From the NCBI GenBank assembly GCA_034440135.1, contig JAWXBP010000043.1, forward strand, positions 1 to 32,969: DNA of 32,969 nt. The letters run 5' to 3'. Shown here in pieces: positions 23,936-26,760 of this stretch. Origin of the DNA: Planctomycetia bacterium. GTDB lineage: Bacteria; Planctomycetota; Planctomycetia; Pirellulales; JALHLM01. Below the pieces are notes generated by a model. That model was not told the origin of the DNA and did not search any database. It saw only the letters and a list, made by a program, of their open reading frames with translations. The first letter of the stretch is position 1. Each line of letters opens with the position of its first letter. The translations under genes and the position numbers were made by a program.

Positions 23936-25627
23936 GTGTGGCAATCTGGAATTGAACAAGGGGACTGCGTCGCCAAATTGGCGGAGTTGGAGCCCGGCAG
24001 CGTGGATTTGGCGTTCGCCGATCCGCCGTTTAACATCGGCTACAAGTACGATGTTTACGACGACCGCAAAGGCTACGAGCAGTATCTCGAATGGAGCCGG
24101 CAATGGATGCGCGGCGTGGTCCGTGCGCTCAAGCCGACGGGGACATTCTGGCTGGCGATTGGCGATGAATACGCCGCCGAACTCAAGTTGATTGCCCAGA
24201 ATGATTTGCGCCTAACTTGTCGCAGTTGGGTGATCTGGTACTACACGTTTGGCGTCAACTGCACCCAAAAGTTCAATCGCTCACACGCCCATTTGTTTCA
24301 CTTTGTGAAGGATGGGCGCATCGGCAAATTCACGTTCAACGCTCAAGACGCGAACGTGCGCGTTCCGTCCGCTCGGCAGTTAGTCTATGCGGACGGTCGC
24401 GCCAATCCCGATGGCCGACTTCCCGACGACACCTGGATTTTGCGCCCGCAAGACGTCCCGGACGGATTTGCCGCCGAGCAGGATACGTGGTATTTCCCGC
24501 GCGTCGCGGGAACCTTCAAAGAGCGCGCAGGCTTTCACGGCTGCCAGATGCCGGAGCAGCTTTTGGGGCGAATCATTCGCATCTCCTCCAACCCGGGCGA
24601 TCTTGTGCTCGATCCCTTCGGAGGAAGCGGCACGACGCTGGTGGTTGCCAAGAAGCTTGGCCGGCAGCACAAGGGATTCGAGTTGTCGAAAGACTATGCG
24701 GCGAAAATCCGCGAGCGCTTGAACGGCGTGCGCGAAGGACAGGCGCTGGATGGCTCGGCGGAGCCGCAGCGTAGCGCGCCCACGACGCCACGCGCGCGAG
24801 CGCTCGATTTGAAGTCGGGCATCATTGAGGCGTTTGAAGCGGCGAGGGCGGGCTTGTCGGTCGATCACGTGCTGGCAAATCCTGAGATCAATGAAGCGTT
24901 CGTGAGTGGCTGTCAACGCCGGTCATTGCCTGGACAAGCAACTGACTGGAATCGATTTCTTCTGCGGCTCCGAAAGGCCAAGGAGCTGCCAAAACTGGAA
25001 GTGATTCGGCGTCGAATTCTGAATCGCGAGGAAATCGATGAGTTCGGATTTGCCAGCGAGATGGCATTGCGGGAGATGACGTCGAGTACTCATTTGACTT
25101 TGGATGAGATTTTATGCGATCAGGAGCTTGCAGCCCAGTTTGACCGGCGCGCACAGGCGTATTGTCCTGGTCGCACGCCGTTCGAATATCGATGGGCAGC
25201 GCTCGCCTTGCGTAAATATGCAAGGGAATTTCGTGAGTATCGAAAGGATTTCAGCGAGGAAGTCGCCACGTGTCAGTTGCAGGGCATGAAGTCATGGGAC
25301 CAGATCTTGCGAAAAGAGGGGTTTGCGATTCCTGGCGTTTACATGTTGCAGAGTGAAAATGGTCAAAAGGTGTACGTTGGCGCATCGGTTGATCTTCATC
25401 GTCAATTGAGGCGACAATTTGAATTGAGCGTGTCTCCCGGTTGGTCCGATTTGCGTGTCGTGGGCGCCCGGATCGCGCGGGTGCCTAGCCACGTTGGCGT
25501 AAGTACGACGAAAAAGACACGAGAATCTCGACAGCACCGTTGTGCTGTTGCAATTCAGTCCACATGCATTCAGAAATACCGCCCGATGCTGAACATCCAG
25601 GACTTGGCGGCCGTGTTAAGCGTATGA
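23936..25627 (+). CDS. DNA adenine methyltransferase fused to a degenerate GIY-YIG domain
   Basis: The product is 563 residues in three parts. Residues 1-265 form an N4/N6 DNA methyltransferase of the beta order: catalytic DPPF at 29-32 (typical of N6-adenine) comes first, and the SAM-binding LDPFGGSGTT at 225-234 comes later. Residues 307-351 and 387-431 are two copies of a roughly 45-residue repeat. Residues 465-555 form a GIY-YIG-like domain with GVY (467-469), YVG (480-482) and a C-terminal PMLN, but Gln490, Gln494 and Gln541 stand at the positions of I-TevI Arg27, His31 and Glu75. This nuclease domain is probably inactive. GTG at 23936 is the start, supported by GGGAG at 23924-23928. The stop overlaps the next gene's start as ATGA. 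The distal half looks AT-richer than the flanks, which hints at transfer. Confidence 0.9.
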   Translation: MWQSGIEQGDCVAKLAELEPGSVDLAFADPPFNIGYKYDVYDDRKGYEQYLEWSRQWMRGVVRALKPTGTFWLAIGDEYAAELKLIAQNDLRLTCRSWVIWYYTFGVNCTQKFNRSHAHLFHFVKDGRIGKFTFNAQDANVRVPSARQLVYADGRANPDGRLPDDTWILRPQDVPDGFAAEQDTWYFPRVAGTFKERAGFHGCQMPEQLLGRIIRISSNPGDLVLDPFGGSGTTLVVAKKLGRQHKGFELSKDYAAKIRERLNGVREGQALDGSAEPQRSAPTTPRARALDLKSGIIEAFEAARAGLSVDHVLANPEINEAFVSGCQRRSLPGQATDWNRFLLRLRKAKELPKLEVIRRRILNREEIDEFGFASEMALREMTSSTHLTLDEILCDQELAAQFDRRAQAYCPGRTPFEYRWAALALRKYAREFREYRKDFSEEVATCQLQGMKSWDQILRKEGFAIPGVYMLQSENGQKVYVGASVDLHRQLRRQFELSVSPGWSDLRVVGARIARVPSHVGVSTTKKTRESRQHRCAVAIQSTCIQKYRPMLNIQDLAAVLSV

Positions 25628-26385
25628 AGGAGCGGCTCGCATCAGCGTTCAGGCATGTTTGTGACGGCTTCTCCGCCGATCGCGTCGTCGCCGATCCTGA
25701 ACTAAACCCCCGATTTATCGAAGCTTGTCGCCAGGCTGGCCTGACCGTGTCGGTGCGGGATCTGAACATTGCGTTGCTCAATCTTCGCAAGTCGGGCGAC
25801 CTGGGTAGCACGGTGAAGGTGCGGCGCACGGAATTTCGCGACCAGGAAGAGTATCGCCATGCCAGCGAAATCGCGGCGCGGCATATGGAGCTGAAGCACG
25901 GCGTCAGTTGGGACGTGATTGTCTCAACACCGGAGTTGGTCGCCGAGTTCGACGCTGAGGCCGCTTCGATCGCGCCCGGCTTCGATGCTTTGCGATACCG
26001 CTGGGCGGTTTTCAGCCTCAGAAAGCAGCGCAAGCTTGTTCCGGAACTTTTGGCGCGTGTTGTCTCGCCGGTAGCCGTGAGTATGGGCGCTATCTCGGCG
26101 CTCGACGTTGCGTCGATCGTAGCGGAGCAAGGCATCTACCTCTTTCATAGCCCTACGGCGACGCTTTATATCGGCGAAGCGGAGAATCTTCGCAAGCGAA
26201 TAGCCAAGCACTTGGATCACTCGGATAACAAGGGCCTCGCGCGCTGGCTCTGGGATCAAGGCATCGAAGGCGCGCACTTGGAGTTGCGAATTTTGCCGCC
26301 GGACACTCCGACGCGCGTCCGCCGTGCTCTGGAGGCCGAGCTGATTCGATCGCGCCAGCCGTTGTTCAATATCAAATTGACTTGA
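25624..26385 (+). CDS. GIY-YIG nuclease with the same repeat domain (candidate restriction enzyme)
   Basis: The product is 253 residues. Two copies of the repeat found in the upstream methyltransferase occupy residues 16-60 and 94-138. The C-terminal 85 residues are a GIY-YIG nuclease with GIY at 170-172, YIG at 182-184, Arg192, His196, Glu237 and Asn249, so all the family's catalytic residues are in place. The start ATG at 25624 shares the ATGA overlap with the methyltransferase stop, which implies translational coupling. Longer in-frame starts at 25540 and 25564 exist but lie deep inside the upstream gene and before the conserved region. GIY-YIG enzymes such as Eco29kI and Hpy188I are restriction endonucleases, so this is a candidate partner of the methyltransferase. 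A repair or homing role is the alternative. Confidence 0.85.
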   Translation: MKERLASAFRHVCDGFSADRVVADPELNPRFIEACRQAGLTVSVRDLNIALLNLRKSGDLGSTVKVRRTEFRDQEEYRHASEIAARHMELKHGVSWDVIVSTPELVAEFDAEAASIAPGFDALRYRWAVFSLRKQRKLVPELLARVVSPVAVSMGAISALDVASIVAEQGIYLFHSPTATLYIGEAENLRKRIAKHLDHSDNKGLARWLWDQGIEGAHLELRILPPDTPTRVRRALEAELIRSRQPLFNIKLT

Positions 26386-26406: not shown

Positions 26407-26760
26407 ATGTCGATCGCTGAGGAGTCGCTCCGCATCACGGGGCTGTTTGAGGCCGAGCTCCTCGTGGAGCTCATGTTGCGACATTGGCATCATCCACTTG
26501 CCGACGATGCTGACTTTCGCATTGAACTGCTTGAGCTTGCGGCGGAAGCACTTCGGCTGGCGGTAGCGGGAAATGTGTTGATTCCTGAACTCCCTGCGGT
26601 GAAAATGAATCTCGTGGCCGCGGTCTGGTATGCGGAGCAATCACAGAGTTCCATCTCCGCAGTCGAAAGCGCCGCAGTCACTCCCGCCAGAGTCGCTTGG
26701 CTTGATGCCGTACGACGCTCACTCCCCTCCTGTTTCTGCGATCCCGAGTTCCTGCCGTGA
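26407..26760 (+). CDS. Small acidic protein of unknown function downstream of the nuclease
   Basis: The product is 117 residues, predicted helical, acidic in its first half (for example ADDADFRIELLELAAEALRL), with no signal peptide, membrane segment or helix-turn-helix that I can see. It starts 21 bases after the nuclease stop, and its stop overlaps the GTG at 26757 of the next gene. It therefore probably belongs to the same transcript as the methyltransferase and nuclease. Codon choice looks like that of a real gene. It might be a regulator, inhibitor or accessory subunit of the module, but there is no direct evidence. The call is a hypothetical protein. Confidence 0.6.
   Translation: MSIAEESLRITGLFEAELLVELMLRHWHHPLADDADFRIELLELAAEALRLAVAGNVLIPELPAVKMNLVAAVWYAEQSQSSISAVESAAVTPARVAWLDAVRRSLPSCFCDPEFLP

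Follow-up and report, generated by a model that had tools for sequence, protein, structure and literature searches.

Introduction

In type II systems, the enzyme that restricts and the one that modifies are as a rule unrelated and have to converge on one site. Two kinds of described system resemble the locus reported here: Eco29kI and Cfr42I, in which a DNA methyltransferase (MTase) gene lies beside the gene for a GIY-YIG nuclease, and Hpy188I, a restriction enzyme that uses the same catalytic fold. A preliminary description of this DNA held that the MTases of such systems are not known to carry a copy of the nuclease-side domain. In the freely available papers on Eco29kI, Cfr42I and Hpy188I, to which the search extended, an MTase with a copy of the nuclease unit was not found; an earlier description in REBASE or a subscription paper is possible.

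Nuclease and MTase are combined in one chain in type IIC/IIG enzymes and in an engineered Eco29kI restriction-modification fusion (PMC3039593), and an Slx1-like GIY-YIG domain is fused to a COG4123 methyltransferase in Lactobacillales (PMC1564403). The COG4123 protein and the engineered Eco29kI enzyme are the closest known fusions to the one that we describe. COG4123, however, is an NPPY-type MTase of another family, which is not reported to have a second, free copy of the nuclease. The DnmA-YeeB-YeeC locus of Bacillus subtilis also combines an adenine MTase with a GIY-YIG/T5orf172 neighbour, and DnmA is described as an orphan MTase left from a restriction relic (PMC9973331). Unlike our cassette, DnmA is MmeI-like and has partners that include a helicase, and it is not reported to carry a fused nuclease copy (PMC9973331). 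By analogy, we regard it as the closest functional parallel for an MTase that outlives restriction.

Here we analyse a cassette in a 32,969-nt stretch of planctomycete DNA (the window; contig JAWXBP010000043.1). The cassette encodes an MTase fused to a repeat-GIY-YIG unit (gene 1), a separate repeat-GIY-YIG protein (gene 2) and a small helical protein (gene 3; Table 1). Unlike Eco29kI and Cfr42I, it has an MTase of the N6-adenine beta class bearing a predicted dead copy of the nuclease unit, and a nuclease with two helical repeats before its GIY-YIG domain; a third gene is usually present, and the family was confined to Planctomycetota within the searches made.

Table 1. Features of the cassette, in positions of the window
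Feature	Position	Strand	Basis
Gene 1, adenine-type DNA MTase with fused repeat-GIY-YIG unit	23936..25627	+	ORF, 563 aa, GTG start, N6_N4_Mtase match
Beta-class MTase domain of gene 1, DPPF before FGGSGTT, residues 1-269	23936..24742	+	Sequence, Pfam, structure model
Helical repeat unit 1 of gene 1, residues 289-347	24800..24976	+	AlphaFold2 model, pLDDT above 90; hhalign to gene 2 unit 1, 99.8%
Helical repeat unit 2 of gene 1, residues 371-438	25046..25249	+	AlphaFold2 model, hhalign
Degenerate GIY-YIG domain of gene 1, residues 461-556	25316..25603	+	Alignments, model, hhalign
Q541 codon, replacing the metal-binding Glu of GIY-YIG nucleases	25556..25558	+	Alignments
Gene 2, separate repeat-GIY-YIG predicted nuclease, 253 aa, ATG within ATGA overlap	25624..26385	+	ORF, Pfam, six active-site residues
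Repeat unit 1 of gene 2, residues 1-66	25624..25821	+	hhalign
Repeat unit 2 of gene 2, residues 70-142	25831..26049	+	hhalign
GIY-YIG domain of gene 2: Y172, Y182, R192, H196, E237, N249	26116..26379	+	Pfam, alignments
Gene 3, conserved 117-aa all-helical protein	26407..26760	+	ORF, relatives in other loci, model pLDDT 92.4

An adenine-type methyltransferase with a fused repeat-GIY-YIG unit

Gene 1 is preceded by GGAG about 8 nt upstream of its GTG start and has the marks of a beta-class N6-adenine DNA MTase, with motif IV before motif I (FADPPF, then DPFGGSGTT) and the N6_N4_Mtase fold. Pfam N6_N4_Mtase (PF01555) matched residues 23-258 at 6.4e-49, so the adenine-type MTase that had been read from the motifs was borne out, now with exact coordinates and with motifs and fold complete. 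The DPPF motif suggests adenine as the methylated base. In sequence and fold the domain resembles YhdJ, CcrM (6pbd; Z 28.0, rmsd 2.8 over 224 residues), M.MboIIA (1g60; Z 26.6) and M.BceJIV (9c3u; Z 24.9). The list from the structure search with the gene 1 model was filled by MTase matches covering residues 1-269, and among the matches listed these four structures did not cover the repeat-GIY-YIG region.

The catalytic parts and the target-recognition part (TRD, residues 126-200) of the family were equally conserved, with top-residue fractions of 0.78, 0.75 and 0.76. A TRD as conserved as the catalytic parts indicates that the gene 1 family probably has one common target, in which case no co-diversifying reader is required in the repeats. 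Our literature search found no planctomycete methylome paper naming this MTase and nothing useful on M.BceJIV. The methylome of Kuenenia stuttgartiensis MBR1 comprises six adenine motifs (PMC5854607), but no link was found from that strain to the three metagenome-assembled (MAG) records named Kuenenia among our loci (L045, L047, L048), and none of the motifs was assigned to the MTase.

Behind the MTase domain, two helical units (both modelled mostly at pLDDT above 90) lead into a region, residues 467-548, whose modelled beta-beta-alpha-beta-alpha order is that of a GIY-YIG domain. Residues 292-555 of gene 1 align with residues 1-251 of gene 2 at 27% identity over 268 aa (45% positives, E=5e-25), a value that rules out chance likeness of the two C-termini. 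When profiles of the two proteins were compared with hhalign, each repeat unit matched its counterpart at 99.8% and the GIY-YIG parts matched at 99.0%. Within each protein the two units are also tandem relatives, unit 1 matching unit 2 at 90.5% probability in the MTase copy and at 95-97% in gene 2. In Pfam, the gene 1 tail falls below the GIY-YIG (PF01541) cut-off (17.3 vs 22.6 bits), and 18/73 fused relatives match that model at E <=0.01, the best at 1.2e-6. Judged by its sequence, the C-terminus of gene 1 is homologous to the GIY-YIG domain. The fusion, and the GIY-YIG relationship of both C-terminal regions, had been proposed beforehand and were upheld by these searches.

The fused copy has lost its active site. 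By alignment, gene 1 retains Y469, Y480 and N553, and the catalytic R, H and E are replaced by Q490, Q494 and Q541. The metal-binding Glu was found in 0/87 fused relatives (Q in 60, K in 13, R in 12, A and V in 1 each); at the other sites, the 87 proteins kept His in 6, Asn in 86, Arg in 77, the first Tyr in 78 (Phe in 9) and the second Tyr in 79 (Phe in 8). This loss was identical in copies with and without a nuclease neighbour. With no catalytic Glu in any of the 87 fused members, the MTase copy of the nuclease is predicted to be dead, and an active fused nuclease was ruled out. In type IIC/IIG enzymes and the engineered Eco29kI fusion the fused nuclease is active, whereas in the gene 1 family the site is lost in every member seen; gene 1 thus lacks the functional nuclease in the MTase chain that defines type IIC/IIG. 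The E142A mutation of Eco29kI abolished cutting and left DNA binding intact (PMC1952068). Taken with the loss of Glu, this means that the fused domain is best read as non-cutting and possibly as a DNA-binding or assembly domain.

The separate nuclease keeps all catalytic residues

As the preliminary description had noted, an ATGA overlap leads from gene 1 into a second gene with the same repeat region and an intact GIY-YIG site. Gene 2 passes the PF01541 cut-off (24.7 vs 22.6 bits) and has the half motifs and the catalytic R, E and N of the superfamily. Its active site agrees with that of Eco29kI at all six positions (Y, Y, R, H, E, N; PMC1952068). These are the classical residues, unlike those of Hpy188I, in which a Lys replaces the second Tyr (PMC2630997). 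Among the separate neighbouring nucleases, Glu was present in 13/13 and His in 14/14 where the site was covered. The cassette nucleases share 52% mean identity with all catalytic residues kept, indicating that the nuclease is under constraint where it is present.

A third gene usually completes the cassette

The locus had been described as a two-gene module. This count was too low, as the cassette is usually of three genes, gene 3 included. The third product is modelled confidently as a five-helix bundle, and relatives (47-57% identical to the window copy where aligned) were found in nine fetched cassette or MTase loci and in one further locus (L185). In an unbiased sample of genomes, gene 3 occurred in just 2/392, both times behind this MTase. 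Comparison of the model with known structures gave no convincing fold (best Foldseek E 1.7, best Z 4.7); Pfam, PADLOC and PHROGs gave no match, and neither did virus-like contigs. No counterpart in known restriction systems is known. The third gene is one of three features that the first reading had missed, the others being the absence of catalytic residues from the MTase copy and the absence of a nuclease gene beside most relatives.

The duplication is old and both genes were inherited together

In a tree of repeat-GIY-YIG units, all fused copies formed one clade (95/95), while the cassette nucleases and a group with signal-peptide-like N-termini formed a second (98/97). Nearest to the fused copies was a third group, P, found beside unfused or D12 MTases (87/82). 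The MTase copy was no more like the nuclease of its own cassette (identity 0.318) than those of other cassettes (0.327; p=0.98). The separate clades and the lack of within-cassette likeness indicate that the duplication is old, and they rule out a recent duplication specific to the window; the identity comparison likewise rules out gene conversion or matched divergence of the two sets of repeats. Pairwise distances of MTase and nuclease were correlated over 14 cassettes (Mantel r=0.56, p=0.0003), indicating that both genes have been inherited together since the duplication. The preliminary description had inferred duplication of the unit and recruitment of one copy to the MTase: the duplicated arrangement stands, recurring in the 14 cassettes, but recruitment specific to this lineage is not supported, given the separate old clades.

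Nuclease presence requires at least 11 changes on the MTase tree, which is weakly resolved. The simplest reading is repeated loss of the nuclease from an old cassette, and the count of 11 fits gain or loss alike.

Most fused methyltransferases stand alone

A scan of GTDB genomes for the fused MTase gave at least 572 relatives. The 80 loci that we compared are the best 80 of these relatives, a choice that biases any count taken from them; nearly all are planctomycetes by name, with mis-binning possible for MAG contigs. Linkage counts in the cassettes are biased because members were mostly found through their MTase, a bias from which the samples of 398 and 392 genomes are free. Among the 398 class genomes, drawn evenly, a repeat-GIY-YIG protein of some kind occurred in 124 and a fused-length protein in about 80 (open frames of 540-850 aa, counted from a table, hence the approximation). 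An intact cassette-type nuclease (E below 1e-100) occurred in 7/398, in 7/7 cases directly behind a fused MTase. The nuclease is thus present in about 7 of the roughly 80 carriers, and most fused MTases stand alone, among them those of the cultured Thalassoglobus neptunius KOR42 (L090) and strain K23_9 (L081): the MTase of the window adjoins its nuclease, but most of its relatives are orphans.

Where the nuclease is present, the arrangement is regular. The two genes overlap or nearly overlap in 14 diverse cassettes, with a start-stop overlap of 1-5 nt at 12/14 junctions. The gene pair that had been singled out for survey recurs in diverse cassettes but is not the common state; adjacent MTase and endonuclease genes inherited together, as in a type II system, characterise a minority of MTase carriers. 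In four loci (L030, L044, L063, L193) the nuclease is broken or absent and the MTase or small gene is retained. In one of these (L030, 5586-8767) the MTase and small gene have a GC3 of about 0.29, against about 0.45-0.55 in most neighbours, and so look horizontally acquired; a PIN-like gene lies beside them. At another locus (L027, 8557-9626) two TIR-domain genes come right after a solo fused MTase, the first overlapping it.

The flanks of the window are ordinary chromosomal genes rather than a defence island. PADLOC 2.0.0 matched the MTase to type II MTase models only, with no system model beyond generic MTase, and gave the nuclease weak PDC-S14/UzuA matches on the GIY-YIG part only. The MTase relatives on virus-like contigs mostly lacked the fusion and shared 40-65% identity across the MTase domain, and the nuclease profile matched one such contig. 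Searches of plasmids with gene 2 and of phages with the MTase C-terminus gave zero matches, and a plasmid or catalogued-phage origin was rejected.

Related repeat-GIY-YIG proteins

Relatives of the unit lie beside other adenine MTases or carry signal-peptide-like N-termini. Twelve proteins (L165-L169, L171-L175, L178, L180) have all catalytic residues and a hydrophobic, signal-peptide-like N-terminus and do not lie beside the fused MTase; another of the same clade (L024, 7967-8920) has such an N-terminus as judged by eye. These are possibly exported nucleases derived from the cassette nuclease. Outside the cassettes, every intact copy examined either had a signal-peptide-like N-terminus or lay beside a D12 adenine MTase gene (L170, L196), which is the pattern expected if the nuclease endangers unmethylated DNA of its own cell. 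The second of these, on a virus-like contig (L196, 1589-3609), is an intact cassette-type nuclease gene divergent from the D12 MTase gene and next to a terminase-like ORF.

Four proteins (L170, 6408-7586; L176, 6415-7545; L177, 6220-7365; L179, 6383-7642) fuse a HicB/ribbon-helix-helix domain to the unit; 3/4 have lost the Glu, and a D12 (Dam-like) adenine MTase gene is near those in L170, L177 and L179. At three further loci (L190, 5849-8283; L194, 1809-3237; L182, 1907-4237) a small protein ('IVPSHDK', similar to phrog_3543), a degenerate repeat-GIY-YIG protein and an unfused beta-class or D12 MTase are neighbours. The same repeats also occur near the C-terminus of a 1602-aa DrmMI/type IIG-like MTase (L184, 948-8620; L192, 1299-8998), which in L184 follows a gene matching DpdE of the 7-deazaguanine Dpd system at 7.6e-266.

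Discussion

Our preferred reading, at a probability of roughly 55%, is a type II-like restriction-modification cassette in which a single unit exists in two copies, one live and one dead, and which often decays to an orphan MTase. The beta-class MTase would methylate adenine in a fixed recognition sequence, and gene 2 would cut the same sequence when unmethylated, its two helical repeats holding DNA or a partner while the GIY-YIG domain cuts. The dead duplicate may allow the MTase to sit on the same DNA, or to bind the nuclease, with no cleavage, and the 117-aa protein may be an accessory or assembly factor. In most lineages the nuclease would have been lost and the MTase kept with its dead domain as an orphan, probably a regulatory one. 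All seven intact nucleases in the class sample lie directly behind a fused MTase, the position to be expected of a nuclease that does harm where the mark is missing. Against restriction stand the scarcity of the nuclease among carriers, the lack of a defence island, a third gene without parallel in known restriction systems, and the lack of repeat matching within cassettes. The last of these neither proves nor excludes a common target or complex, since the TRD of the MTase is itself highly conserved.

The prevalence of solo MTases suggests a second reading, which we consider rather doubtful: the family would consist mainly of orphan regulatory adenine MTases, with the dead domain as a tail for DNA binding or dimerisation; the separate nuclease, where present, would be a decaying or accessory remnant without restriction. 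Equal conservation of catalytic part and TRD would fit, as orphan MTases are typically conserved (PMC4752239), and DnmA-YeeB-YeeC offers a precedent (PMC9973331). A decaying remnant, however, accords poorly with a nuclease that is constrained where present and has been co-inherited with its MTase.

The nuclease might instead be modification-dependent, reading the mark of its own or a foreign MTase, or might act on intermediates of replication or repair, under the control of the small protein and the MTase tail. In sequence, the UvrC and Cho repair nucleases come nearest to the gene 2 GIY-YIG domain (UvrC GIY-YIG structures vs the nuclease family profile, 5e-6), helper-controlled GIY-YIG repair nucleases exist, as described for SLX1-SLX4 (PMC8287910), and the third gene is unexplained. 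We nevertheless think this unlikely: cutting at its own mark would be lethal to a carrier whose DNA is fully methylated, and protection by the mark is a simpler account of the 7/7 linkage to the MTase. That gene 2 is a selfish homing-type endonuclease gene settled beside the MTase is very improbable, because for all the resemblance of GIY-YIG plus helical DNA-binding-like repeats to homing enzymes, and the intact relative on a short virus-like contig, gene 2 always has the same place and orientation behind the same co-inherited MTase, with no intron or intervening element.

Returning to a type II-like cassette with a live and a dead copy, we tentatively raise a broader possibility, less probable than that reading itself: the two-repeat helical module with its GIY-YIG domain may be a general, exchangeable partner of adenine MTases in Planctomycetota, the dead version acting as a cis or trans reader or assembly subunit, the live version supplying the matched nuclease, and a small, dedicated third protein joining them. 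If true, this would be a restriction-modification design in which paralogues of one module guide both enzymes to their site or to each other. What the modification and restriction chains have in common here is a paralogous three-part unit, predicted dead in the former and live in the latter. Should this unit determine the target or hold the two enzymes together, it would offer a simple route by which matched pairs arise. The widespread planctomycete MTase family probably has one conserved target, and long-read sequencing of any carrier could read its mark; those fused proteins that lack a nearby nuclease gene provide a way to ask how restriction systems become regulatory MTases.
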